From IMG/VR virus record IMGVR_UViG_3300003702_000108, positions 1-21,893 of that record: 21,893 nt of DNA; one strand, given 5' to 3'. The notes beneath the pieces were generated by a model. It was not told the DNA's origin and did no database searches. It saw only the letters and a list, made by a program, of their open reading frames with translations. The position numbers and the translations under genes were made by a program. Below, one piece after another: positions 1 through 21,630 of this stretch. How positions within the stretch are numbered: position 1 is the stretch's first letter; the number at the start of each line of letters is the position of its first letter. This DNA comes from a virus.

Positions 1-489
1 AAGCGCCTAACCTTAGATGCTTACGCTACGCCGGAAAGTGCGATTGAGCCATTGCTTCCGCACCTCGGTTTACGGGTTCGTTTTGACGAGCCGTGTGCCG
101 GGGACAGGGCATTGGTTAAGCATCTGACGAGGCACGGGCATCAGTGTGCTAGGGCCAGCGATATAACAGATGAACACCCTGTGGATGCCTTGGATTTAAA
201 GAGGTCGGGCGCAGAAATATTTATCACGAATCCGCCTTGGGATTGGGCTGTATTGGACCCGCTTATCACGCACCTGTCGGATATGAAGCCGACATTCTTG
301 CTGTTGAACGCCGACCTGATGCATAACAAGAGGATGGGGCGGCATATGTCTCGATGCGAGAAGGTGGTTTCGATAGGCCGCGTCCGTTGGATTGAGGGGT
401 CCAAGAGTACTGGGATGGAAAATTGTTGCTGGTATTTGTTTAAGGACAAGGAAGTTAAAACGGTGTTTTATGGCCGGGGGGCGAAATAA
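1..489 (+). CDS. SAM-dependent DNA methyltransferase-like protein, N-terminus cut by window edge
   Basis: The frame is open from the first base of the window to TAA at 487-489, so the gene probably starts a few codons to the left. An internal TTG at 52 could give 145 residues, but the conserved sequence already begins before it (KRLTLDAYATPESAIEPLL). That stretch resembles the D-x-Y-x-TP start of a family of short phage methyltransferases. EPCAGD fits the SAM-binding motif I, and NPPW fits catalytic motif IV of amino-methyltransferases acting on adenine N6 or cytosine N4. The probable role is methylation of phage or host DNA. No target-recognition domain is visible and specificity is unknown. 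The stop overlaps the next start by one base (TAATG), suggesting co-translation with a nuclease-like gene. Function is inferred from motifs; the family match is fairly secure. Confidence 0.72.
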   Translation, partial: KRLTLDAYATPESAIEPLLPHLGLRVRFDEPCAGDRALVKHLTRHGHQCARASDITDEHPVDALDLKRSGAEIFITNPPWDWAVLDPLITHLSDMKPTFLLLNADLMHNKRMGRHMSRCEKVVSIGRVRWIEGSKSTGMENCCWYLFKDKEVKTVFYGRGAK

Positions 490-920
490 TGCCAGAGGGA
501 GCCTTGAAGGTTGAGCGGGATTTTCAGGCCGAGGACGACGCGAAGGAGTTTATCGGGGCCAAGTGGAAATGCGAAGTACGGGATATGGGGGATTTCGGTG
601 ATATCGATTGGATGCTGTATCGAGATAATCGGATTGTGGCGATTGCGGAGTTTAAGCGGTTATATCGGGAAAGCGGTGAGTGGCCGAATGTACGGATAAA
701 TTTAAAGAAGTGGTTGCCCCTGATGTTTGTGGGGATTGGTTTGAAGGTTCCAGCGTATTTCATTGTGCAGTTTAACGACCGGATTTGTTACATCGATGTG
801 CAGATAGTTGATGCGACTAAACATGAGGTGAATGGCCGGAAGGATCGGGGCCGAGGCTCTGATTTACAGCCGGCTATTTTGGTTCCAGTGAAGACTATGA
901 AAGGGTTTAATTATGGCTGA
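489..920 (+). CDS. PD-(D/E)XK-type nuclease-like protein
   Basis: This 143-residue protein contains D40 in a GDIDW context, then E54-F55-K56 after a short beta-hairpin-like spacer. This is the arrangement of a PD-(D/E)XK active site as found in VRR-NUC, Holliday-junction-resolvase-like and restriction-type nucleases. An N-terminal glutamate or aspartate that could complete metal binding is available in the helix around residues 9-20. The probable role is a small metal-dependent DNA nuclease, perhaps a resolvase acting before packaging, but the substrate cannot be read from the sequence. It overlaps the upstream methyltransferase by one base and the downstream SSB-tailed gene by eight bases, so the three are likely one translational unit. 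The methyltransferase pairing could suggest restriction-modification, but nothing else supports that. The fold assignment is motif-based. Confidence 0.55.
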   Translation: MPEGALKVERDFQAEDDAKEFIGAKWKCEVRDMGDFGDIDWMLYRDNRIVAIAEFKRLYRESGEWPNVRINLKKWLPLMFVGIGLKVPAYFIVQFNDRICYIDVQIVDATKHEVNGRKDRGRGSDLQPAILVPVKTMKGFNYG

Positions 921-1227
921 CAGATATGACCTGAAGACGGCCAGGACGGGCCGCGACGGGAAGACGTATTGGACAAAGATCGGCGTGATGTTCCCGATGC
1001 GGGAGAAGGATGGTTTCAGCATTACCCTGGAAGCCCTGCCGATCCAGCAATTGAACGACGACGGCCGGCTAGAGTGCAGGATCACCGCCTGGGAGCCCTA
1101 CAAGGAGGGGAAGGGTGGGGGAAACAGTGGGGCCAGGGATCACGATATGCCTCTTCCGGCCGCGGTGGACACCGAGGAGAAGGAGAGTGGCGAAGCGGCC
1201 CTCCTCGATGACAAGATACCGTTCTGA
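913..1227 (+). CDS. Small protein with SSB-like acidic C-terminal tail
   Basis: This 104-residue protein has a beta-rich N-terminal part (about residues 1-62, with KTYWTKIGVMFP and GFSITLEALPI patterns). A glycine- and charge-rich linker follows, and the protein ends in LLDDKIPF. Bacterial single-stranded DNA-binding proteins end in a closely similar acidic tip (DDDIPF type) that recruits partner proteins. The tail is seen directly; that the N-terminal part is a ssDNA-binding OB-like fold is inference. Similar short proteins are known to me only as phage hypotheticals. The gene overlaps the nuclease-like gene by eight bases, and its stop overlaps the small terminase start by one base (TGATG). 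Its location between DNA-processing and packaging genes suits a role at replication forks or packaging substrates. Confidence 0.6.
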   Translation: MADRYDLKTARTGRDGKTYWTKIGVMFPMREKDGFSITLEALPIQQLNDDGRLECRITAWEPYKEGKGGGNSGARDHDMPLPAAVDTEEKESGEAALLDDKIPF

Positions 1228-1652
1228 TGGCCCGTGATCCGGTACGCCGTTTCGGCGGCATCAAGGCTTTGCAGCGCCGGCTCCGCGGCAGGTCGAAGGT
1301 GATCTCGCAGAACAAGGATGCCATCGCCGCCGAGCTGGTGTCCATGGCGATGGTCAACCTCACCGATATCATCGAGTGGGACGAGAAGGGCAACGTCACG
1401 GTGAAGGCGAGCGCGGAGATCACCGACGAGGCGACGAGAGCCATTAAGCGTTTCAAGATCACCAACTCGAAGGATGGCCCGGTTCTCGAGATCGAGCTTC
1501 ACGATAAGGTCAGGGTTTTACAGATACTGGCAAAGGCTTCCGGCCTTCTCGAGCCGGTGATGGAAATGCCGAATACGCCAAGCGTCGTCGGCATCACGAT
1601 GAAGGGCCCCGAGATCATCGAGGTCGAGGTTGAGGAGATAAAGGAGGGATGA
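1227..1652 (+). CDS. terS: Terminase small subunit (Terminase_2-like C-terminal part)
   Basis: The 141-residue product matches the C-terminal half of Terminase_2-type small subunits: MVNLTDIIEWDEKGNV, then ITDEATRAIKRFKIT, a beta segment GPVLEIELHD, and KVRVLQILAKASGLLEP. In packaging, the small subunit oligomerises, recognises phage DNA and stimulates the large-subunit ATPase. Its position just ahead of the large terminase supports this. The usual N-terminal helix-turn-helix DNA-binding domain of longer family members is not evident; only a short basic segment (residues 1-28, rich in Arg and Lys) precedes the oligomerisation part. It starts at an ATG overlapping the previous stop and ends with an ATGA overlap into the radical SAM gene. 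The assignment is good from motif and context. Confidence 0.72.
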   Translation: MARDPVRRFGGIKALQRRLRGRSKVISQNKDAIAAELVSMAMVNLTDIIEWDEKGNVTVKASAEITDEATRAIKRFKITNSKDGPVLEIELHDKVRVLQILAKASGLLEPVMEMPNTPSVVGITMKGPEIIEVEVEEIKEG

Positions 1653-2581
1653 GAATCGCGCTATATGATGTGGATAGCAAGATACCCAACCTTGCCCTGA
1701 TGAAACTGTCTAGGTTTCACCGTGAGGCCGCCGATGATGTGGAGATGTATCTCCCCCTCGCCATCAATACCTACGATAGGATATATGCATCCAAGGTGTT
1801 CGACTATTCAGATGGGTCCGGCCTTGACCCCGAGAGGATGATCATCGGCGGCACCGGGTTTGACTTAAAGGTCAACCTGCCGCCAGAGGTCGAGCGCCTT
1901 CAGCCCGACTACACCCCCTATAATTATCCCCACAATATCGGCTTTTCCATGCGCGGATGTAGGTTCAGGTGTAAATTTTGCGTGGTTCCACAGAAGGAGG
2001 GGACACCATACGAGAACAATACTATCGCGGAAATTTGGCAACAGCGAGACAGTGACTTTGTCGTTTTGCTTGATAACGACTTCTTCGGCAACCCATCTTG
2101 GGAGGACCGTATAGAGGAGATACGCCAGTATGATCTTCGAGTATCGTTCAGCCAAGGGCTAAACATCCGCATTATTACCGATGACCAAGCCAAGGCCCTC
2201 GCGTCTGTACATTTCCGAAACCTCTCGGGGAAAAAGAAACAGGTTCATTTTGCTTGGGATCAGTGGGGTAAGGGAACCGAAAGGCTTATCGATGAGGGGT
2301 TCGCTCGCGTCACCGCCGCCGGCATTAAACCATACCAGATGGCTTTTTTTGTTTTGATCGGCTGGCATACTACCGAGGAACAAGACCTCTATCGGATCGA
2401 TAAATTGCACGGTCTTGGGGCCGATGTGTTTGTAATGCCCTACGACAGAAAAGACCCATACCAGAAGGCCCTGTCGCGCTGGAACAACCGCCATGTTTGG
2501 CGGTCAGTGCGCTGGCCTGACTATCGCCGTGCCGGCTGGCAACCGAAGCAACAACGGGCTTATGAGGCGGCAGTTAGATGA
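1649..2581 (+). CDS. Radical SAM enzyme with N-terminal Rossmann (B12-binding-like) domain
   Basis: This 310-residue protein has a canonical radical SAM cluster motif, C104-x3-C108-x2-C111 in RGCRFRCKFC, which binds a [4Fe-4S] cluster that cleaves S-adenosylmethionine. Residues 1 to about 95 (IALYDVDSKIPNLALMKLS, IIGGTGFD) resemble a degenerate cobalamin-binding-like Rossmann domain. I recall this arrangement in a family of radical SAM proteins of unknown function found in bacteria and phages. Downstream barrel elements include LLDNDFFG and a SQGLNIR segment. It is not QueE-like: the cysteine spacing differs and the protein is larger. The gene sits between the small and large terminase genes with ATGA overlaps on both sides, so it is translationally coupled to packaging genes. 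Substrate and product are unknown; a modified nucleobase, nucleotide or protein residue is possible. Codon use looks less GC-rich than in the terminase, suggesting separate acquisition. Confidence 0.85.
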   Translation: MRIALYDVDSKIPNLALMKLSRFHREAADDVEMYLPLAINTYDRIYASKVFDYSDGSGLDPERMIIGGTGFDLKVNLPPEVERLQPDYTPYNYPHNIGFSMRGCRFRCKFCVVPQKEGTPYENNTIAEIWQQRDSDFVVLLDNDFFGNPSWEDRIEEIRQYDLRVSFSQGLNIRIITDDQAKALASVHFRNLSGKKKQVHFAWDQWGKGTERLIDEGFARVTAAGIKPYQMAFFVLIGWHTTEEQDLYRIDKLHGLGADVFVMPYDRKDPYQKALSRWNNRHVWRSVRWPDYRRAGWQPKQQRAYEAAVR

Positions 2582-4107
2582 GCGAAATAGCCGGCCTCGC
2601 CGCCCTCAACCTCGACTTTTCCACCGCCGCCACCGTCTGGAAGATGCTGGTGTCGAATGCTTTTGTCCGCGGTATCGTCGGCCCTGTGGGCAGCGGCAAG
2701 TCCTACGCCTGTGCCGCCGAGATCATGTTGAGGGCCGTCAAGCAGAAGCCGTCGCCGAAGGACGGCGTCCGCTACACCCGGTTCGCGGTGGTCAGGAATT
2801 CGTATCCGATGCTTCGGACGACGACCTTGAAGACCTGGGCCGAGCTGTTTCCCGAGAACGTCTGGGGCCGGATGCACTGGTCGCCGCCGATCACCCATCA
2901 TATCCAGTTGCCGGCAAGGGGCGACGCCGCCGGCATCGATTGCGAGGTGATCTTCCTGGCTCTCGACCAGCCGAAGGATGTCAGGAAGTTGTTGAGCCTC
3001 GAGCTCACCGGCGCCTGGATCAACGAGGCGAGGGAGCTGCCGAAAGCCATCGTCGATGGCCTTACCCATAGGGTTGGCCGCTATCCCGTCAAGTCGGACG
3101 GCGGCCCGACATGGCGCGGCATATGGATGGACAGCAATGCGATGGACGACGACCACTGGTGGTTCAAGCTGGCCGAGCGCGGCGAGGCCCCAGGCGGCAA
3201 GTTCCCATGGAAATTCTGGAAACAGGCGCCGGGCGTCACCGAGGTCGCCGAGGCTGACCTTCCCGATGATCCCGAGGCCAACGGTTTTGTCTTGAGCGCC
3301 GGCAAGTGGTGGATGGTCAACCCCTCGGCCGAGAACCTCAACAACCTGCCGAGTGGGTACTATGAGCAGCTCGTCGGCGGCAAGCGCCTCGACTGGATCA
3401 GGTGCTACGCACGTGGCGAATATACCTACGTTCAGGAGGGCAGGGCGATCACCCCGGAGTATGACGACGAGATGATGAGCGTCGATGGCCTTCAGTACGA
3501 TCCGGCTCTGCCCCTCCACATCGGCCTCGACTTCGGCTTGACGCCGGCGGCCGTCTTCGGCCAGCGGACGGTGGCCGGCCAATGGCGGATACTGCACGAG
3601 TTGGTGACCTTTGACATGGGCCTCGAGAGGTTCGGTAATATGTTGAAACCCGAGATCGAGACGGTCTTCCCGAAGGCCAACGTGATGATCTGGGGCGATC
3701 CGGCCGGCGTCCAGCGCGACCAGATATACGAGGTGACGGCGTTTGATCACCTGAAGACCTTGGGCCTATTGGCGCGGCCGACGCACACCAATGACTGGAA
3801 GACCAGGCGCGAGGCGATGGCTGCGCCGATGATCAGGTTTATCGACAAGAAGCCGGGCCTTCTCGTGGACAAGAAGTGCTTGAGGACACGCAAGAGCCTT
3901 TCCGGCGGCTATCACTTCTCGAGGGTATCGATGGGAACCGGCCAGGAGCGTTTCCGCGATGTGCCCAACAAGAACGAGCATAGCCATGTCGGCGACGCCT
4001 ACGGCTATCTCGTGCTGGGCGGCGGCGAGCACCGACATATGACGCGGCGGCCGGGCGCCGTTGGCCGGCAAAGCGTGGCGGCGATGGACTTCGATGTCTT
4101 CGCATAG
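2578..4107 (+). CDS. terL: Terminase large subunit (ATPase and nuclease)
   Basis: The 509-residue packaging motor carries a Walker A loop at residues 35-42 (GPVGSGKS) and a Walker B-like strand ending at E150 (ELTGAWINEARE). Its C-terminal RNase H-fold nuclease has candidate metal ligands D318 (LHIGLDFG), D374 (IWGDPAG) and D473 (HVGDAYGY). This is the normal order and length for a phage large terminase. It hydrolyses ATP to pump DNA into the prohead through the portal and cuts the concatemer. The start ATG overlaps the stop of the radical SAM gene (ATGA). The next gene starts inside its 3' end. Motifs are complete and nothing is missing. Confidence 0.95.
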   Translation: MSEIAGLAALNLDFSTAATVWKMLVSNAFVRGIVGPVGSGKSYACAAEIMLRAVKQKPSPKDGVRYTRFAVVRNSYPMLRTTTLKTWAELFPENVWGRMHWSPPITHHIQLPARGDAAGIDCEVIFLALDQPKDVRKLLSLELTGAWINEARELPKAIVDGLTHRVGRYPVKSDGGPTWRGIWMDSNAMDDDHWWFKLAERGEAPGGKFPWKFWKQAPGVTEVAEADLPDDPEANGFVLSAGKWWMVNPSAENLNNLPSGYYEQLVGGKRLDWIRCYARGEYTYVQEGRAITPEYDDEMMSVDGLQYDPALPLHIGLDFGLTPAAVFGQRTVAGQWRILHELVTFDMGLERFGNMLKPEIETVFPKANVMIWGDPAGVQRDQIYEVTAFDHLKTLGLLARPTHTNDWKTRREAMAAPMIRFIDKKPGLLVDKKCLRTRKSLSGGYHFSRVSMGTGQERFRDVPNKNEHSHVGDAYGYLVLGGGEHRHMTRRPGAVGRQSVAAMDFDVFA

Positions 4108-5615: not shown

Positions 5616-7196
5616 ATGGCGGCGTTGAATCCGGATCAGCTCCGCAAGCGGTCGGCGGCTGCCTGGGACAAGAAGGAGCCCTGGCGGCACCTCTACGACG
5701 AGGCCTACGAGTTTGCCCTCCCCCAGCGGAACCTATACGACGGCAGTTGGGAGAGCGGCACCAGGGGAAGGCGTAAGGGCGCTCGTGTTTTCGACAGCAC
5801 CGCCGTCCACGCCACCCAGCGGTTCGCCAACCGGATGCAGAGCGGCCTCTTCCCGCCCGACAAACGCTGGATGGTTCTACAGCCGGGCACCGACATCCCC
5901 GACGATCGCGATGACGAGGTGCGCGAGGCCCTGCAACTCTTCACCGATCGGTTCTTCGCGATCCTGAACCAAACCAATTTCGACCTGGCGATGGGCGAAT
6001 TCCTGATGGACTTATGCGTCGGCACCGCGGCGATGATGGTGCAGCCCGGCGACGATGACAACCGGATCAAGTTTACCGCCGTCCCTAATTTCCTGATCGC
6101 CATCGAGGAAGGCCCTAACGGCAGCGTCCAGAACGTCTACCGCAAGGTCAAGATGCCGGTGGAGAACATCACCCGCACCTGGCCCGACGCCACCCTCACC
6201 GAGGAATTGAAGAGGTTGCTCGAGGACAAGCCCCAGGAGCAGATCAACCTTAGAGAAGGAACGATCTTCGACATCGCCGACAAGCAATGGCGATATTACA
6301 TCTGGCGGCAGCAAACAGATGATCAGGCTGACATCCTCGTCGAGCGCGAGCTCAAGCGGTCGGCCTGGGTTGTCTCGAGGTTTATGAAGATCTCCGGGGA
6401 GGTCTGGGGCCGAGGCCCTCTCCTCTCGTGCCTTGCGGACGTGAAGACCTTGAACAAGGCCATCGAGCTCCTGCTCAAGAACGCCTCGATCAACATCGCC
6501 GGCGTCTACACCGCCATCGATGACGGCGTCCTCAACCCGCAAACGATCCGAATAGTCCCCGGCGCGGTTATCCCCGTAGCCCGAAACGGTGGTCCGCAAG
6601 GACCGTCTTTGTCTCCCCTGACCCGCTCCGGGGACTTGCAACTCTCCCAGCTCGTCATCAACGATCTCCGAATGCAGATAAAACAAACCCTCCTCGACGA
6701 CAGCCTCCCGCCCGAAAATATGTCCGCTAGGAGCGCAACGGAAATCGTAGAAAGAATGCGCCGGCTGTCTATCAACATGGGAGCGGCATATGGCAGGATG
6801 ATCACCGAGACAATGCTGCCTTTGGTGCGCTTGGTCTTGGATATCATGGGCGACGAGGGCCTGATCGACTTGCCTCTGCGAGTCGATGGCCTCGAGGTGC
6901 AGATAGTTCCCGTCTCGCCCCTGGCCCAGGCCCAAAACCTAGACGAGGTTCAAAGCGTCCTCCAGTGGCTCGGCATCGCATCGCAGCTCGGCCCGGTCGG
7001 CCTGGCGACGGCGAAGATGGATGCCATCGCCGACTGGGTGGCAGAGCAGTTGGGCGTCCCCGTCTCCCTTAGAACCAGCCAAGAGGAGCGCCAGGAGATC
7101 GAGCAGATGGGTCAGCAATACCTCGAGGCCCAGGCACAGCAACAGGCGGCTCCGGTCGAGACCGGCGCACCGCCGCCGGGGGCTCCCGTCCAGTGA
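5616..7196 (+). CDS. Portal (head-to-tail connector) protein, T7 gp8-like
   Basis: This 526-residue protein is close to the 536 residues of T7 gp8. It matches the head-to-tail connecting protein family: N-terminal RKRSAAAWDKKEPWRHLYDEAYEFALPQ, then FDSTAVHATQRFANRMQSGLFPP, KLKR/SAWVVSRF-type core segments (WGRGPLLSCLADVKTLNK), and PLVRLVLDIMGD near the end. Twelve copies form the ring at one capsid vertex through which DNA is packaged and ejected, and which holds the tail. A TAA in the same frame directly precedes ATG 5616, fixing the start. The C-terminus is Gln/Ala/Pro-rich and probably disordered. The stop overlaps the next start (GTGA). Assignment is firm. Confidence 0.92.
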   Translation: MAALNPDQLRKRSAAAWDKKEPWRHLYDEAYEFALPQRNLYDGSWESGTRGRRKGARVFDSTAVHATQRFANRMQSGLFPPDKRWMVLQPGTDIPDDRDDEVREALQLFTDRFFAILNQTNFDLAMGEFLMDLCVGTAAMMVQPGDDDNRIKFTAVPNFLIAIEEGPNGSVQNVYRKVKMPVENITRTWPDATLTEELKRLLEDKPQEQINLREGTIFDIADKQWRYYIWRQQTDDQADILVERELKRSAWVVSRFMKISGEVWGRGPLLSCLADVKTLNKAIELLLKNASINIAGVYTAIDDGVLNPQTIRIVPGAVIPVARNGGPQGPSLSPLTRSGDLQLSQLVINDLRMQIKQTLLDDSLPPENMSARSATEIVERMRRLSINMGAAYGRMITETMLPLVRLVLDIMGDEGLIDLPLRVDGLEVQIVPVSPLAQAQNLDEVQSVLQWLGIASQLGPVGLATAKMDAIADWVAEQLGVPVSLRTSQEERQEIEQMGQQYLEAQAQQQAAPVETGAPPPGAPVQ

Positions 7197-14126: not shown

Positions 14127-15785
14127 ATGGCCCTCAAGCAGGGAGAGGCGGCTGGCCTCGCACAGGGAGCCGCCTCGGCGACAGAGCTTGTTGAGATAGC
14201 GAAACGTACCGGCAAGCCGATCACTACAGCCGATCTGCCTGGCGATCCCTCTTCCATCAGTGTCATTGAACAGGCGGCGTATAAGGGAGGCCTCGCCGTT
14301 GTGACCAGCCAGTTTGCCGTCGATGGTCGAAAGGCGATCACGGCGGCGGCGTTGGAAGCGTCACAAAACCCGGACATGACGCCCGGCGCCTTCGGCATGA
14401 TCCTCAACAACATCGTCAAAGAACGCACCGATGCGCTGCGCAACATCTCGCCAGCGGAGGCGGCGAAGCTGGGCGCCACCCTTTCCATCGTTGCCAACAG
14501 CACCGGCGTCAGCCAGGCCAGGTCGTTCTTTACTCAACAGAAGAATCTCAGGAAGGCGGCGGCGATCGCCAGCGTTTCGGTCTTTCAGGACGATATCACG
14601 GCCATCATCTCGGGCTATCAGATAACGCCAGGCGAGCCATCCTTAGAGAAAACAATCGACGCCCAGTTAACCCAGCTCGAGAGCCACCTTATCAATGAGG
14701 GTGTTCCAGCCAATACCGTAGCGACAAAACTCAAAGCCGTCAGGGCAGCTATCGTCGAGCAGAAGATCGCGGTCATCAAGAACTATGCCCGACTTTATAC
14801 CAATGATCCCATCGGCGGGATGTATGGGGTCATATCGCAATTTCAAAGCAAGACGGGGAGGGTGGCCGATGACAACATACAGGCGGTTTTTGAAAGCCTC
14901 GACGTTATCGGCAAGAACAAGCTCATCGATGACCTCCGTACCGAGCACAACGCGGAAATTAATCTCGGTCTGGCTCGTGAAAATAACTTCGCGAAAGGAA
15001 GAGAAACGACCATTTTCAAGTTAATCCAAACCTTTATGGGAAACCTCGAATCCAATAGGGAAGTGTCAAAAACAGCTCTCGAAGCGATACGGAAAATTGA
15101 TGCGGATAAAGCCGACACCTTAGACAAAATATATAACGAAGGGCCAAAGCCAGATACGGAAAACAGCGCAGTGGTTCGCGAGTATGTGGCGATGATGATC
15201 GACAAAAGGGTAAGCGTTGAACGCTTACAGGGATTAATTATGGATGACCCTGGATTGAGCGCCAACGAGAAAATTGACCTTTCTACAAAGCTGGCAACTT
15301 TCCAAGATACTAAATTCAAAAAGGCTTTGCGTATTGCCAAAGCCAAAATTGGCATTGATCCCCGTTATGTCAGGGATTTAGGCAAGGAAGCTGCTCCCGA
15401 GCGACGCCGCCTCCTCTCCATTTATGACAAGCTCCACGGCCAGATGGAGGAAGAGATGCTTGATCCCGCCTTCGATCCGATCAAATTTATAAAAACAGAG
15501 CTGCCGAGAATTGAAATACAGGAAACGACATATATTTTAGGTCAGGCACAGAAATCATTAAGGACGCAGATCAAACTTAGTGGCATCCCCGAATGGCAGG
15601 ATTATGATCTCACAACCATTGCCGGCCTGGTGGCCCTCAACGAGGCGCTCAAAGGCTACAAGAGCTTGCCGGCGTCGGAACAACGCAAGAAGGGGTTTAA
15701 TGTTCGACGTTTGGATAGAGCTCAATTAAAAATAACTGATGCCGTCGAAGCCCTTGAGGCGCTCTTAGCATTAGGGAGCCAGTGA
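14127..15785 (+). CDS. Internal virion protein, T7 gp15-position, N-terminus probably in another frame
   Basis: From the first ATG in frame this gives 552 residues; with the displaced 5' end (from 14008) about 592. The product is almost wholly helical, rich in Ala, Lys, Glu and Gln, with no obvious enzyme motif. The N-terminal MALKQGEAAGLAQG and the preceding IDALGASVNK fit the start of gp15-like ejection proteins. T7 gp15 has 747 residues, so this one is shorter. In T7 gp15 and gp16 form a channel across the periplasm after ejection. The stop TGA overlaps the next start (TGATG at 15783-15787). Codon use around 14940-15600 is more AT-rich than in the neighbours, suggesting mosaic origin. Similarity to gp15 is judged by position and helix pattern only. 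Confidence 0.6.
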   Translation: MALKQGEAAGLAQGAASATELVEIAKRTGKPITTADLPGDPSSISVIEQAAYKGGLAVVTSQFAVDGRKAITAAALEASQNPDMTPGAFGMILNNIVKERTDALRNISPAEAAKLGATLSIVANSTGVSQARSFFTQQKNLRKAAAIASVSVFQDDITAIISGYQITPGEPSLEKTIDAQLTQLESHLINEGVPANTVATKLKAVRAAIVEQKIAVIKNYARLYTNDPIGGMYGVISQFQSKTGRVADDNIQAVFESLDVIGKNKLIDDLRTEHNAEINLGLARENNFAKGRETTIFKLIQTFMGNLESNREVSKTALEAIRKIDADKADTLDKIYNEGPKPDTENSAVVREYVAMMIDKRVSVERLQGLIMDDPGLSANEKIDLSTKLATFQDTKFKKALRIAKAKIGIDPRYVRDLGKEAAPERRRLLSIYDKLHGQMEEEMLDPAFDPIKFIKTELPRIEIQETTYILGQAQKSLRTQIKLSGIPEWQDYDLTTIAGLVALNEALKGYKSLPASEQRKKGFNVRRLDRAQLKITDAVEALEALLALGSQ

Positions 15786-18490
15786 TGGCGGAAGTAGTCG
15801 AAACACCCGGCGGCCTGAAGGGCCCAGACGTTCAGCTCCCCGAGAGCGTTCTCCCCGAGAGCGTTCCATCCGAGTCGCCGGTCATCCACATCCCGGCGCC
15901 GGCGATGGATATCAACGAGAGGCTGACCACCCGCTATTATATGCGGACCAACCCGGACGGGTTTAATGTTAACGACGACGGCGACCCCATCGACCCCACC
16001 GTCGAGCCGGCCGTCGAGCCGGCCGTTGAGCCGGCCGTTGAGCCAGTTGATCCCCTCGAGGCGGCGGCCCAGATCGGCGGCACCGAAAGCCGCGATATCG
16101 TAGAAGATATCAAAACGCTGGGCGAGGTCTTGCCTGATGTTGCACAAGGCCTCCTTCTGTCTGGCCCGGCCAAGGGGTTCCATCAGATCAACAAGCTCGA
16201 TCCAACCGGCATCCTTCCGGCCATCGAGGCTTTCGGGGGGCGGATCGCCGACTTCCTCGGCATCGATACTAAAATCGACGAGCCGAAAACACTTCCTGGG
16301 AAGCTGGCCGAGGGCTTTGGTCAGTTCCTCCCAGGCATCCTCCCGGCCACTAAGGTTGCTCGCCTTATGATCGGCACCAGTACAATTATCAGGAGGGTTG
16401 CAGCCGAGCTTCTCGGGGGCGCCGTTGGCGACTACGCCACCTCCAGCGAAGTGGAAGCGGAAGGCCTCGTCGGGCTGGTGAAGATGATCGACGCCGACTG
16501 GGCGCAGAAATTCGGGGACACCATCCAGCATTTCATCACCAAGGGCGGCGGCGAGGATATTGATGAGTTCCGCGCCCGACTGGTCGGGGCGGTTCCCGGC
16601 GTTCTTCTCACCCCCATTTTGGCACCCTTGTTGGAGGGCCTGATCAAGATCGCTACATCCGCCCTGAAGTCGGGCGCGGCTGATGATCTCGTTAAGGTTT
16701 TCGATGAGGTTCAGGCTGATAATCAGAAGGTGGTTGGTAGTGGTGATGAAATTGTCGGCGGTGGTACAGGGGGCGCCAGAGGTGAACGTGTTACCACTAC
16801 CGGGCAGTATATTGGGGCCCCAAAAGGGATCACATCTCCACAGGCGTTGAGCGGCTTGAGAAGAAAATTACAGAACATAACCGTTAAGGGCCAACTCGGT
16901 CGGTTTTGGTATGAAAGATCAAGCCGGCAGATTCTGGACGCTGTCGGAGGCAACATAGATGATGCCGACAAACTGGTTCAGCTTATCGGTATTTTTAGTA
17001 GCGGAACCGATGTGGCGTCGAATTTCAATTACGCTTTACAGGCGTTTACCCAAGCGAAGGCTGGGTTGCCGATTAAGTCGGGGCGTTTTCCAGCACGGCA
17101 ATCAAAGGCTGCACAGGATGTGATGGATGGCATTCCTTGGGGAGGGCGCAAGACCAACAATTTCTACAACAATCTTATGGTTCATATCGATCCCAAACGA
17201 GTGCAGGGGGTCACCACGGATATATGGATAATGAGGGCTTTTGGTTTCAAGAACCCGGATGGTACGCCGTTTGGTTTAAAACAAAAGAACGGCAAGGCAG
17301 GGCTGACCCGTCCCACAGATGCACAGTATGACTTTGTGGAAAAGGAAATTATCAGGATCGCTGATCAAATGGGCTGGGAACCGCAACAGGTGCAAGCGGC
17401 AATATGGGTTGCTGAAAAAGCAAAAGGTGAAGGCACCTCGGTTGCCCAAGCAAAGTTCGACTTTGCCGATGCTCTACAAAACAACCTCGGTCAGGTCAGT
17501 TGGGAGAGCATCCCAGGCCGTACCTCTCGTCATATGCCGGAGATGTTCGACGCTCCCTACCAGCAACAAGTCGAATACCATCAGGCGGTTTCAAAGGTCT
17601 TCCTTGACGATGCCGGCAATGACATTATCGCGAAGGAACTGGGGATTCCCTCGCCGCGGGAATTTGAGGCTCCCGGTCATTTTGAAGGAAAGACAAGTCC
17701 CGGCACCCAAACTGAAGTCGCCCTTCCAAGGTTATATAAAGGCCCGGCATACGGAAAAATTGACGCCGGCGCGGAGGCGTTGGTTAACGCCTATGCTGCC
17801 GTCAGGGGTATCTTGCTGAAGCAGGATGGTGTCGGATGGCACCGGCCTTTCTATAACGCCACGATCGATGCCTCGAATGGCATAGAGATCAGGATCGGCC
17901 GGAAGTTAAGCACCGGCGAGACCAAGCGTCTGGCGAAGCTTATTGCGGATGAGGCGGGACATACGGAATATAACCCGATCAGCTCTCCGCTCGGCACCCG
18001 TATTATTAACTTCGATCATTTATTAAAGAACCCGGATGGTACGCCTGTGATGCCAGACACTTGGATAGACCATGAATTATTAGTTACAAATAAGGAATTC
18101 CACGCTATAGTCGGCCGTGCGCTGAATCATATGCAGTTCGATAATGGCGCGAAGTATGATGCTGGGCGGTTTGCGTCCCAGAATGGGTATCTCGATAACG
18201 ATTGGGGAGTAGGGAAAAATGGCGAAAGGTACTTGGAGACAACTCTCAAAGGACGACCCGATCTTCAGCGGAAGGTTCGTGATATCGTCAAAAAACTCGG
18301 CCCAAGAATCGACGAGCTCGACGAAGACTTCAGCCGTCGATACGGCTGGACCCTCAACCGTGAAATCAACAGCGGAAACCAAAGAGGGTTAATCAAAAAA
18401 GCTATCCTGCCGGCAGCCGCTGTCGCGGCACCCATGCTCTTGAGTGGGTCAGAGGAAAGTGGCGCAGAGTTAAATGAGGGAGGCCCCTGA
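15785..18490 (+). CDS. Large internal (ejected) virion protein with possible helix-hairpin-helix-like domain
   Basis: The start ATG at 15785 overlaps the previous TGA; a GTG at 15782 would add one residue. The 901-residue protein has a Pro/Glu/Val-rich, disordered start with EPAV repeats (residues 73-88). An Ala/Gly/Leu-rich hydrophobic middle follows (about 115-290, with VPGVLLTPILAPLLEGL). A globular region (about 360-560) contains GGRKTNNFYNNL (453-464) and VTTDIWIMRAFG (from 476), which recall the hairpin-lysine and Asp elements of HhH-GPD glycosylase folds; this link is only by eye. A C-terminal globular domain (about 670-850) follows, then a short hydrophobic segment. Position corresponds to T7 gp16 genes, but no lytic transglycosylase motif is seen. 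It is likely ejected with DNA, similar in concept to polyvalent phage proteins. Confidence 0.62.
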   Translation: MAEVVETPGGLKGPDVQLPESVLPESVPSESPVIHIPAPAMDINERLTTRYYMRTNPDGFNVNDDGDPIDPTVEPAVEPAVEPAVEPVDPLEAAAQIGGTESRDIVEDIKTLGEVLPDVAQGLLLSGPAKGFHQINKLDPTGILPAIEAFGGRIADFLGIDTKIDEPKTLPGKLAEGFGQFLPGILPATKVARLMIGTSTIIRRVAAELLGGAVGDYATSSEVEAEGLVGLVKMIDADWAQKFGDTIQHFITKGGGEDIDEFRARLVGAVPGVLLTPILAPLLEGLIKIATSALKSGAADDLVKVFDEVQADNQKVVGSGDEIVGGGTGGARGERVTTTGQYIGAPKGITSPQALSGLRRKLQNITVKGQLGRFWYERSSRQILDAVGGNIDDADKLVQLIGIFSSGTDVASNFNYALQAFTQAKAGLPIKSGRFPARQSKAAQDVMDGIPWGGRKTNNFYNNLMVHIDPKRVQGVTTDIWIMRAFGFKNPDGTPFGLKQKNGKAGLTRPTDAQYDFVEKEIIRIADQMGWEPQQVQAAIWVAEKAKGEGTSVAQAKFDFADALQNNLGQVSWESIPGRTSRHMPEMFDAPYQQQVEYHQAVSKVFLDDAGNDIIAKELGIPSPREFEAPGHFEGKTSPGTQTEVALPRLYKGPAYGKIDAGAEALVNAYAAVRGILLKQDGVGWHRPFYNATIDASNGIEIRIGRKLSTGETKRLAKLIADEAGHTEYNPISSPLGTRIINFDHLLKNPDGTPVMPDTWIDHELLVTNKEFHAIVGRALNHMQFDNGAKYDAGRFASQNGYLDNDWGVGKNGERYLETTLKGRPDLQRKVRDIVKKLGPRIDELDEDFSRRYGWTLNREINSGNQRGLIKKAILPAAAVAAPMLLSGSEESGAELNEGGP
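16001..16048 (+). repeat. Four 12-base units encoding Val-Glu-Pro-Ala
   Basis: Units GTCGAGCCGGCC (twice) and GTTGAGCCGGCC, then a diverged last unit GTTGAGCCAGTT, follow without gaps and encode VEPA three times and VEPV. They make a flexible Pro-rich linker near the N-terminus of the large internal protein. Confidence 0.85.
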
Positions 18491-21400
18491 TGGCGATCCC
18501 TCAAGACCCCATCATCCCCACGATCACCACCGTCCCCGAGCCGGCACCCCAGATCGACGGGCCTATCGAGGAGGCTATATTGCCTCCCGAGCAGATCAGC
18601 CTCTTTGAAGATGATAGCGATGTGCAGCCGCCCATCGAGGCTGTCGAACCTGTCCCCGTCACCACCGATGAGCCCGTCCAAGTAGCCGGCCTTTGGCAGA
18701 CGATAACCGGGGCTGCGAAAAAGGCAGCGAAAAAGATCGAAGAGGCCGAGCCCATCGGGGCCAAGCCTCCCGAGGAACCCGTCACCAAGGTCGGCGACTT
18801 TTGGGTAGTGCGTGAATCATCCGACCAAGAGGTGGCCGCTTACAACTCGATCATCGGCGTCACCGAAGGCAAGCCGCCATCGGTTGCTATCAATTATGAT
18901 CGCATGGTTGGGACCAACAGCGAGCTGGAAACCTTCGATAAAATTGCTCAAGTCTACAAGAAATACATCGACAAGCAGAAGCGTGGCAGCATCACCTTCC
19001 TCGAAACCATCCAGGCGGCCCAACGGAAGATCGATGGCGGTGTCATCGAGGCGGTCAAGAAGGGGGGAGAGACCGTTGCCAAGCTGAAGGAGGGTGGTGT
19101 TGACGGCATCCTCGACTTGCTGTTCAAGCGCAATATCGGTCAGCCCATCAACGCGGAAGACCTGATCGCCGGCCGTCTTGCCCTCGCCGCCGTCAACCGG
19201 GATGTCACTTTATTGCAGCAGAAGATCACTGCCGGCATAGCAACCGAGGCCGAAAAAATACAGTTCCGGCAAGCGATGGCGATTGAGGGAGCTGCAATGG
19301 CTTCTCTCCTGGGCGGCAGGGCCGAGGCCGCGAGAACGACAGCGGCGGGGCGTATCGTCGCCGATATCAGCGAGGCGCGAGCTGACGAGATCACCAGGCT
19401 TCTCACCGAGGGCGGTGATCAGACGGTGGAATGGCTGGCGGAACGCTATGCTATACTGCCGACCGCCGAGGCCAAGGCCCAGTTTTCCAGGGGCATCCTT
19501 GGTAAGGCTGTCGATGTCTGGCAAACCATTTTCCTCAACGCATATCTTTCCGGGCTGACGACACAAGGTGTCAATATCGTCGGCAATACCGGCATGGGGT
19601 TGCTTCAGGTCGTCGAGCGGTTGGGAGCGGAGCTGATCGGCGGAACCCGAAGGTCGGGCGCAAAGCTTTTAAAGAAAGGCGTGGATAAGTTCGCCAAGCC
19701 GCTAAAGCCCGGCCAGAACGAGCTGCCTAGTTTCCTCCAGAGGACATCTGCCCTCCTCGGCCGGGAGGCAGCGGGAGGCGTTCAGCGTGGCGAGGCCCTA
19801 GCGATGCTGCACGGTTTAATCGTCGGCACTCCACAAGCCCTGCGCCTGATGATTAAGTCCTACATACTGGATATGCCCCAGTCTGGCGGACTGACCACCA
19901 AGCTCGATATCAGGGGTCTTCGCAACCCCATCAGTGGGGAGAACCTCCTTCCCGAAAAAATCAGGAACTTCGGTTTAGGCCCCTACGCCAACCTGGGCCG
20001 CGCCGTCGATGCCCTCGGTTTTATTTTCACCCAACCCGGTCGGTTCCTGATGAGCGCCGATGAGTTTTTCAAGGCGTGGAACCAGCAAGCCCAACTCCAC
20101 GCTCTTTCCCTCCGGCGCATGAAACAGAATATCTCGGCCGGGATGTCACCTGAAGACGCCAAGGTGCGTTACGATGTCGATATGCGCGATCCGCCGGCTG
20201 ACCTAGTCGAGGCGACGCGGGAGTTCGCCGATGTCTCCACCTTCACCAATGAACTGGAGGGGGCGCTGGGCAACCTTCAGGCGACGATGTCCCACCCCGC
20301 CATCAAGATCGCCGTGCCGTTCTTCAAGACACCCACAAACATCGGCGGCCAGACGGCGCAACGGGCCGGGCCCCTCGCCCTCCTTTCACCTAAATTCCGC
20401 AAGCTGATGATGAGCGCCGATCCGGCCGATCGCGATCTTGCGATGTCGCGGTTGGCAATCGGATCGACGATAATGGGCACCTTCGCGATGATGGCCGGCG
20501 GTAACCTCTTCGACGACGACGGCAACCTCATCGACGACATCACCATCACCGGCTCTGGTCCGACCGCTCGCGGGGCGAAAGACGCCTTCCGCCGGCAGAA
20601 GCTTCAGCCCTATTCCATCTGCGCTCGGATAGGCAGCGGCACAACGTATTCCTGTGTCTCTTATTCCCGTTTTGATCCCATCTCCGGGTTGCTGGCGATG
20701 GCCGGCGACTACGCGGATTATGCCAGATACAGTGACGACAAGGAGGAGCTGGAGTTGCTGGCGACGGCGGCGGCCCTGGCTGTCGAAAACTACATCGACG
20801 AGCTTCCCATGCTCCAAGGCATGGTCGATATCGGTTCGATGTTTGGGCGGTCAAACGAGGACGGCGCCTTCCTTCCGGGCCTTCTCGATAAGCTGGCAGA
20901 GATGACCGCATCGACGATCCTTGAGCCGGGGATGGCGATAGTGACGAGCGGCACCAACTACTCCTCACTGATCGCCAGTATCGAGAGGCTCCAAAACCCG
21001 ACCGTCAAGGATACGACACCCGATCCAAACCTGCCGCTCGTATTCAGGGGTTTCTATGCCGCCCTCCTCAAGGCGAAAAGCCGGAACCCTTGGTTCACCG
21101 ACGAGGTGCCTGACCGCCTGAACCTTTGGGCCGAAACGATAAACGCCGGCGAGGGTAGGGCGTGGGAGTTGTTCTCCCCCATCCGTATTCAGGAGGCAAA
21201 GTTTAACCGCGTCGATACCGAAATCCAGCGGCTTAATTTCTTTGTCGGCGGCCGGCTGACGATGGACCCGTTCAAGAAAGTCAACGGCGTTAAGTTGAAC
21301 ACCCTCCAGAAGAACGCCTTTATCCAGGCCACCAACGAGTTCGAGATCAACGGCGTAAACATGAAGGAGGCCTTCCTCGACTTGATAGACTCCGACAGAT

Positions 21401-21630
21401 ATTACGATCTTAGCAACGAAGATAAGGTGAAGGAGATGGCTAACATCGTCACCACCTACAGGGGCTCGGCCGGAACCATGTCACCCGATGGGACTCTAGA
21501 AGCCCGTTGGGCTACCGGCGGCATCAAAACCCTTTTGGAGGGGGATATTGAACTTGAGGAAAAGGTGATGTTCAGAAACCTGCCGCCATCGGAACAGCGA
21601 GAGCTGAAGAAATTGGGTTCTGCCCCGTGA
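18490..21630 (+). CDS. Large internal virion protein with LPD38-like domain
   Basis: This 1046-residue protein starts at ATG 18490, overlapping the previous stop (TGATG). Residues 1-90 are Pro/Glu-rich and disordered. Helical regions follow (about 95-330). From about 345, SGLTTQGVNIVGN (354-366), then long helices and PFFKTPTNIGGQ (610-621), match the large polyvalent protein-associated domain LPD38, common in big phage ejection proteins. A hydrophobic stretch lies at about 655-672 (LAIGSTIMGTFAMMAGG). The C-terminal region (about 800-1046) carries helices such as NPWFTDEVPDRLNLWAE. It is in the place of T7 gp16, but no SLT-type lytic transglycosylase motif is visible. The likely role is DNA ejection or protection of entering DNA; no direct activity can be read. 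Confidence 0.68.
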   Translation: MAIPQDPIIPTITTVPEPAPQIDGPIEEAILPPEQISLFEDDSDVQPPIEAVEPVPVTTDEPVQVAGLWQTITGAAKKAAKKIEEAEPIGAKPPEEPVTKVGDFWVVRESSDQEVAAYNSIIGVTEGKPPSVAINYDRMVGTNSELETFDKIAQVYKKYIDKQKRGSITFLETIQAAQRKIDGGVIEAVKKGGETVAKLKEGGVDGILDLLFKRNIGQPINAEDLIAGRLALAAVNRDVTLLQQKITAGIATEAEKIQFRQAMAIEGAAMASLLGGRAEAARTTAAGRIVADISEARADEITRLLTEGGDQTVEWLAERYAILPTAEAKAQFSRGILGKAVDVWQTIFLNAYLSGLTTQGVNIVGNTGMGLLQVVERLGAELIGGTRRSGAKLLKKGVDKFAKPLKPGQNELPSFLQRTSALLGREAAGGVQRGEALAMLHGLIVGTPQALRLMIKSYILDMPQSGGLTTKLDIRGLRNPISGENLLPEKIRNFGLGPYANLGRAVDALGFIFTQPGRFLMSADEFFKAWNQQAQLHALSLRRMKQNISAGMSPEDAKVRYDVDMRDPPADLVEATREFADVSTFTNELEGALGNLQATMSHPAIKIAVPFFKTPTNIGGQTAQRAGPLALLSPKFRKLMMSADPADRDLAMSRLAIGSTIMGTFAMMAGGNLFDDDGNLIDDITITGSGPTARGAKDAFRRQKLQPYSICARIGSGTTYSCVSYSRFDPISGLLAMAGDYADYARYSDDKEELELLATAAALAVENYIDELPMLQGMVDIGSMFGRSNEDGAFLPGLLDKLAEMTASTILEPGMAIVTSGTNYSSLIASIERLQNPTVKDTTPDPNLPLVFRGFYAALLKAKSRNPWFTDEVPDRLNLWAETINAGEGRAWELFSPIRIQEAKFNRVDTEIQRLNFFVGGRLTMDPFKKVNGVKLNTLQKNAFIQATNEFEINGVNMKEAFLDLIDSDRYYDLSNEDKVKEMANIVTTYRGSAGTMSPDGTLEARWATGGIKTLLEGDIELEEKVMFRNLPPSEQRELKKLGSAP

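Follow-up and report, generated by a model that had tools for sequence, protein, structure and literature searches.

The radical SAM (rSAM) gene that lies between the two terminase genes of a podovirus-like phage is, in our view, probably an accessory (moron-type) gene. It would encode a predicted radical SAM enzyme with a single cluster, which belongs to the B12-rSAM/MiaB-like clade and functions outside DNA packaging. The gene appears to have been acquired as a precise one-ORF cassette, received by a variable slot between the genes for the small (TerS) and large (TerL) terminase subunits.

The gene and its setting

The stretch analysed, called the window here, is the 21.9-kb virus record IMGVR_UViG_3300003702_000108. 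Its late region is podovirus-like, with a T7-type head-tail connector (PF12236, E 1.2e-100), a T7-type scaffold (PF05396) and tail genes. After the tail genes come two large ORFs (902 and 1046 aa; window 15782-21630), of which the 902-aa one is matched only weakly in PHROG (phrog_3842). The features relevant to the argument are:

1-489, plus strand: DNA methyltransferase-like gene (phrog_799), truncated at the 5′ end by the contig edge
489-920, plus strand: PDDEXK_14 phage nuclease-like gene (Pfam)
1227-1652, plus strand: TerS (PF03592 Terminase_2, E 5.5e-7), left border of the apparent cargo slot (blastn with L093 and L094)
1636-2577, plus strand: exchangeable segment, with the rSAM ORF here and unrelated genes instead in L093 and L094
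1649-2581, plus strand: rSAM ORF, 310 aa, ATG start, TGA stop, phrog_9298
1958-1981, plus strand: CxxxCxxC motif of the rSAM protein (residues 104-111), holding its only cysteines
2578-4107, plus strand: TerL (phrog_2, E 2.9e-24), right border of the apparent cargo slot

The rSAM gene overlaps TerS by an ATGA at 1649-1652 and TerL by an ATGA at 2578-2581, as an earlier sequence-only reading of this DNA had noticed. Such overlaps would couple the gene translationally to its neighbors, so that it would be expressed with the terminase genes.

The interval between the terminase genes

Relatives of the window TerL were found at 80 or more loci, of which those listed (L093-L172) are 68-95% identical. 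Among these listed matches, the rSAM gene is missing from all 80, and their terminase genes stand anywhere from 5 to 1588 bp apart. The closest two of those listed, L093 and L094, have TerL proteins 95 and 94% identical to that of the window. Their DNA homology to the window ends at 1635 and 1644, respectively, and resumes at 2578 and 2577 (blastn), with other genes in between that are joined to the terminase genes by the same kind of tight junction. The slot of L094 holds a PAPS-reductase-like gene, and that of L093 small cysteine-rich ORFs together with a DUF551-like ORF (the latter read from its translation). Elsewhere in the group, a PDDEXK_14 nuclease occupies the slot alone (L111, L115, L117, and L118) or with a phrog_799-type methyltransferase (L116), a glycosyltransferase of family 8 is found in L146, with a relative in L171, and DUF3310 is present in the slot of 16 loci.

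Comparison with another carrier of the gene, L001, defines the unit of exchange. The rSAM ORF is common to the two at 89.9% DNA identity over 934 nt (window 1648-2581) and no further; the surroundings are unrelated save for an 86-bp piece of a methyltransferase gene. The L001 protein is 93% identical to that of the window. The base composition also sets the gene apart, its GC3 being 0.61 vs. 0.816 for TerS and 0.841 for TerL. On these comparisons, the rSAM gene is evidently a cassette of a single ORF, and the TerS-TerL interval that holds it a variable cargo slot; in the L093-L172 phage group this interval is apparently a cargo hot spot, open to many alternative genes.

The methyltransferase-like and PDDEXK_14 genes at window 1-920 are the same pair that fills the L116 slot, in reversed order. 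Relatives of the phrog_799 type also lie just upstream of the rSAM gene in L001 and L017. The phrog_799-like gene appears to belong to the same accessory gene pool and need not act jointly with rSAM.

These findings bear directly on the packaging link that the sequence-only reading had drawn from the location of the gene. The rSAM product might modify the packaged DNA, one of the terminase subunits or a protein of the virion, in which case its gene would sit in the terminase operon for a functional reason; the four-base overlaps with both terminase genes are what such a role would lead one to expect. Yet all 80 listed relatives with the same TerL lack the gene, including those 94-95% identical, where other genes are joined just as tightly, and in most rSAM relatives the gene is found in a replication/nin-like region. 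Given this absence, the variable contents of the slot and the exchange of cassettes, the location is no evidence for packaging, and we regard a packaging role as very improbable. As the main reading it was set aside, the gene being absent or replaced in close TerL relatives. Since cassette exchange can by itself create ATGA coupling, where the gene sits in the operon is no guide to its function in this case. The apparent link between enzyme and packaging makes a more general point: a precise exchange of one-gene cassettes can yield tight ATGA coupling to terminase genes.

Position of the gene in other phages

The sequence-only reading had also proposed testing whether the terS-rSAM-terL order is conserved, and the order did not hold up. 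Two rSAM carriers, L010 and L012, have a TerL of the same family as the window (L010 surfaced through the rSAM query only). In L010 (95% identical), the contig starts inside the rSAM gene, which is followed by a 154-aa ORF and only then by TerL; in L012, the gene lies about 2.8 kb upstream of TerS. The order was likewise absent among the annotated phage records of phrog_9298 carriers that were compared. The 154-aa ORF (L010:639-1103) has a relative (phmmer E 1e-16) in L036 and L048-L050, encoded directly before TerL and rSAM, and the two genes may therefore travel together.

Around 50 non-redundant rSAM loci, DNA methyltransferases, helicases, primases, NinB/NinG and PAPS-reductase-like genes predominate, with terminase and portal genes downstream. 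In several lineages rSAM directly abuts a terminase whose type is unrelated to that of the window: Terminase_6 in L041, a TerL upstream in L036 and L048, and GpA in L080. Adjacency or near adjacency recurs with at least four unrelated terminase types (Terminase_6-like terB, terC, Terminase_3-like terD, and GpA), which counts in favor of a packaging role. Single-sequence hhalign was too insensitive in the search for additional terminase genes: the GpA terminase of L080, detected by Pfam, escaped it. The recurrence itself is real, and this degree of contact may exceed what a wholly random position predicts. The recurring linkage is most simply explained by a shared cargo location, the preferred home of the gene being the boundary between the early accessory and the late packaging modules. 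A preference for late co-expression could still lie behind it.

DNA methyltransferases were found at 38 of the 80 listed rSAM loci vs. 13 of the 80 listed TerL loci, an enrichment that is suggestive only, because the profiles were built from the rSAM loci themselves and the sequences are related. The association may only reflect a general accessory region. PAPS-reductase-like genes were present at 11/80 rSAM loci vs. 6/80 TerL loci and 2/38 Dcm loci, differences too weak to keep a functional pairing with rSAM under consideration. Starting from one PAPS-reductase gene, a scan in the reverse direction added five loci, none with rSAM, and a control with a YqaJ-like protein, which yielded only four loci including the contig of the query itself, was of no use. 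In the annotated phages L091 (LoVEphage), L090, and L088, PAPS-reductase-like genes and several DNA methyltransferases lie within 7 kb of the rSAM family gene.

Conservation of the family

The protein matches phrog_9298, annotated as "radical SAM domain protein," over its full length (E 5.5e-65; residues 1-289 on positions 1-288 of the 305-position profile). The assignment to a radical SAM subgroup without a function thus stands: phrog_9298 is already catalogued as a family but is uncharacterised, and the window protein is a new member. The literature searched held no description of what the family does; phage radical SAM genes are mentioned only as cassettes of unknown role, for example in pelagimyophages (PMC7029224). 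The Pfam model Radical_SAM (PF04055) finds the window protein at E 1.2e-4, under its gathering cut-off, and matches 56 of 59 family members at E≤0.01 (best 1.2e-7).

Relatives of the protein are encoded in at least 80 viral loci. The three cysteines of the CxxxCxxC motif that had been read from the sequence (C104, C108, C111) are invariant in all 59 aligned members, which are about 34-93% identical to the window protein. No other invariant cysteine occurs among the 59, and the window protein has no further cysteine at all. Also invariant are GG(T)G at 67-70, DNDFFG at 142-147, Q169-G170-N172-R174, A202-W203-D204, and R277. The dN/dS ratio is 0.083 against L001 and 0.066 against L010 (dS is saturated for more distant pairs), so that the gene is under strong purifying selection and its product is kept functional. 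In L018 (about 6001-6904), the reading frame shifts between query residues 21 and 23, so that this copy is either frameshifted or lies on a contig with an indel error.

According to the sequence-only reading, a passenger gene would be missing from close relatives or would vary in its cluster cysteines. The first holds and the second does not: the gene is absent from close relatives, and its cysteines do not vary. The invariance of the cysteines suggests that the gene is a functional passenger rather than debris.

Among cellular genomes, homologues were few. A single-sequence query found only six loci among genome contigs. When 190 genomes from the class to which one carrier belongs were surveyed, only that carrier had full-length matches; three further matches were short and limited to the motif region, and the gene is therefore rare in chromosomes of that class.

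Fold and kinship

The AlphaFold2 model of the protein is of high confidence (mean pLDDT 93.6, pTM 0.87). Strands alternate with helices in the N-terminal 90 residues or so, which agrees with the Rossmann-like domain proposed earlier for that end. By fold, MiaB (7mjz) is the sole PDB match at E≤1e-3 (E 1.4e-7; TM 0.60 by query length), followed by QueE and LipA with high probability and E about 0.013; among viral structures, a viral methylthiotransferase ranks highest of the named hits, TM-scores being moderate throughout. By profile-profile comparison with targets built from bacterial genome proteins, rSAM proteins with a B12 domain come first (prob 96.3, 201 columns, with a profile of four sequences only), the match taking in the residues that precede the cluster as well as the DNDFF motif, vs. 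MiaB/RimO at prob 81.3 and 152 columns.

The fold match, together with matches of the TIGR00089 MiaB/RimO model to 23 of 59 members at E≤0.01, raises the prospect of a methylthiotransferase-like enzyme of the MiaB/RimO type that modifies tRNA and reshapes host tRNA in infection. We find this quite improbable: the TIGR00089 scores, 12.5 bits in the case of the window protein, fall far short of the curated threshold (251 bits), the sequence profile is nearer to the B12-type proteins, the family has three conserved cysteines only and no extra N-terminal ones for an auxiliary cluster, and no TRAM domain was matched in the 59 members. MiaB-type sulfur insertion was rejected on account of the absence of the extra cysteines and of TRAM.

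The better profile match invites the converse proposal of a cobalamin-dependent radical SAM methyltransferase whose B12-binding domain has been shortened. A B12 site, which had been put forward as something to look for, did not emerge: the B12-binding domain (PF02310) went unmatched in 59 of 59 members at E≤0.01, and the N-terminal domain, only about 90 residues long, lacks a DxHxxG motif by inspection. This proposal is also improbable, if less so than the tRNA enzyme. With three cluster cysteines only, no TRAM and no recognisable B12 domain, the protein does not qualify as an established methylthiotransferase or B12 enzyme. We place it, from its sequence and predicted structure, in the same broad clade as the B12-rSAM and MiaB proteins and assign it to neither family.

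Possible activity and role

By analogy with the superfamily, the three cysteines would hold one [4Fe-4S] cluster, and SAM would be cleaved to a 5′-deoxyadenosyl radical. The radical would take a hydrogen from a substrate bound between a partial TIM barrel and the N-terminal Rossmann-like domain, which is short and contains no cysteine. With a single cluster and neither auxiliary cysteines nor a B12 domain, the enzyme is likelier to perform simple hydrogen abstraction, a rearrangement or the modification of a small or nucleic-acid substrate than sulfur insertion.

As the neighbors are genes of DNA metabolism and DNA modification, our preferred guess, which we hold with somewhat less than even confidence, is that the enzyme acts on nucleotides or nucleic acids and that the benefit lies in host range or in a role against host defence. 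Radical SAM enzymes of the B12-rSAM/MiaB-like clade act on many small molecules, and the main alternative is that the enzyme modifies a small metabolite or cofactor, as an auxiliary metabolic gene without a tie to nucleic acids. The mixed functions of the slot partners, a PAPS-reductase-like gene and a glycosyltransferase included, are in keeping with it, but no metabolic pathway partner recurs beside rSAM and genes of DNA metabolism dominate its neighbors, and we consider this alternative rather unlikely. The protein matched no family of PADLOC-DB at E≤1, and membership of a defence system was accordingly rejected.

To take the preferred guess of a nucleotide or nucleic-acid substrate further, phrog_9298 might constitute an undescribed class of phage enzyme, which performs single-Fe-S radical chemistry on DNA or nucleotides without an auxiliary cofactor and travels as a one-gene anti-restriction cassette, exchanging with methyltransferase, nuclease and PAPS-reductase-like cassettes beside the terminase genes of many lineages. 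This is a long shot. The family, which is present in at least 80 viral loci and under strong purifying selection, lends itself to biochemistry through its high-confidence model, invariant residues and minimal single-cluster architecture.

Comparison with known systems

The slot of the window shares with other phage moron or cargo slots an ORF-precise insertion, a differing base composition and alternative cargo in relatives. It is unlike them in lying between two terminase genes with ATGA coupling kept on both sides. Other members of phrog_9298, such as those of Bacteroides phage LoVEphage and Methanomassiliicoccales virus vir215, have the same two-domain length and the CxxxCxxC motif, the LoVEphage protein being 33.5% identical over 97% of the window protein. 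Their settings differ: in LoVEphage, the gene lies between DUF551 and small ORFs plus Dam, and in vir215, about 2.4 kb upstream of TerL. The nearest solved fold is that of MiaB/RimO (TIGR00089, 7mjz), which has a similar cluster region, "(M)RGCxxxCxFCxVPxxxG." However, MiaB/RimO proteins are about 450 aa long and have auxiliary-cluster cysteines (three, N-terminal) and TRAM, whereas the window protein has 310 aa and neither. The radical SAM proteins with a B12-binding domain give the best profile-profile match, and the window protein differs from them in having no detectable domain of that kind.
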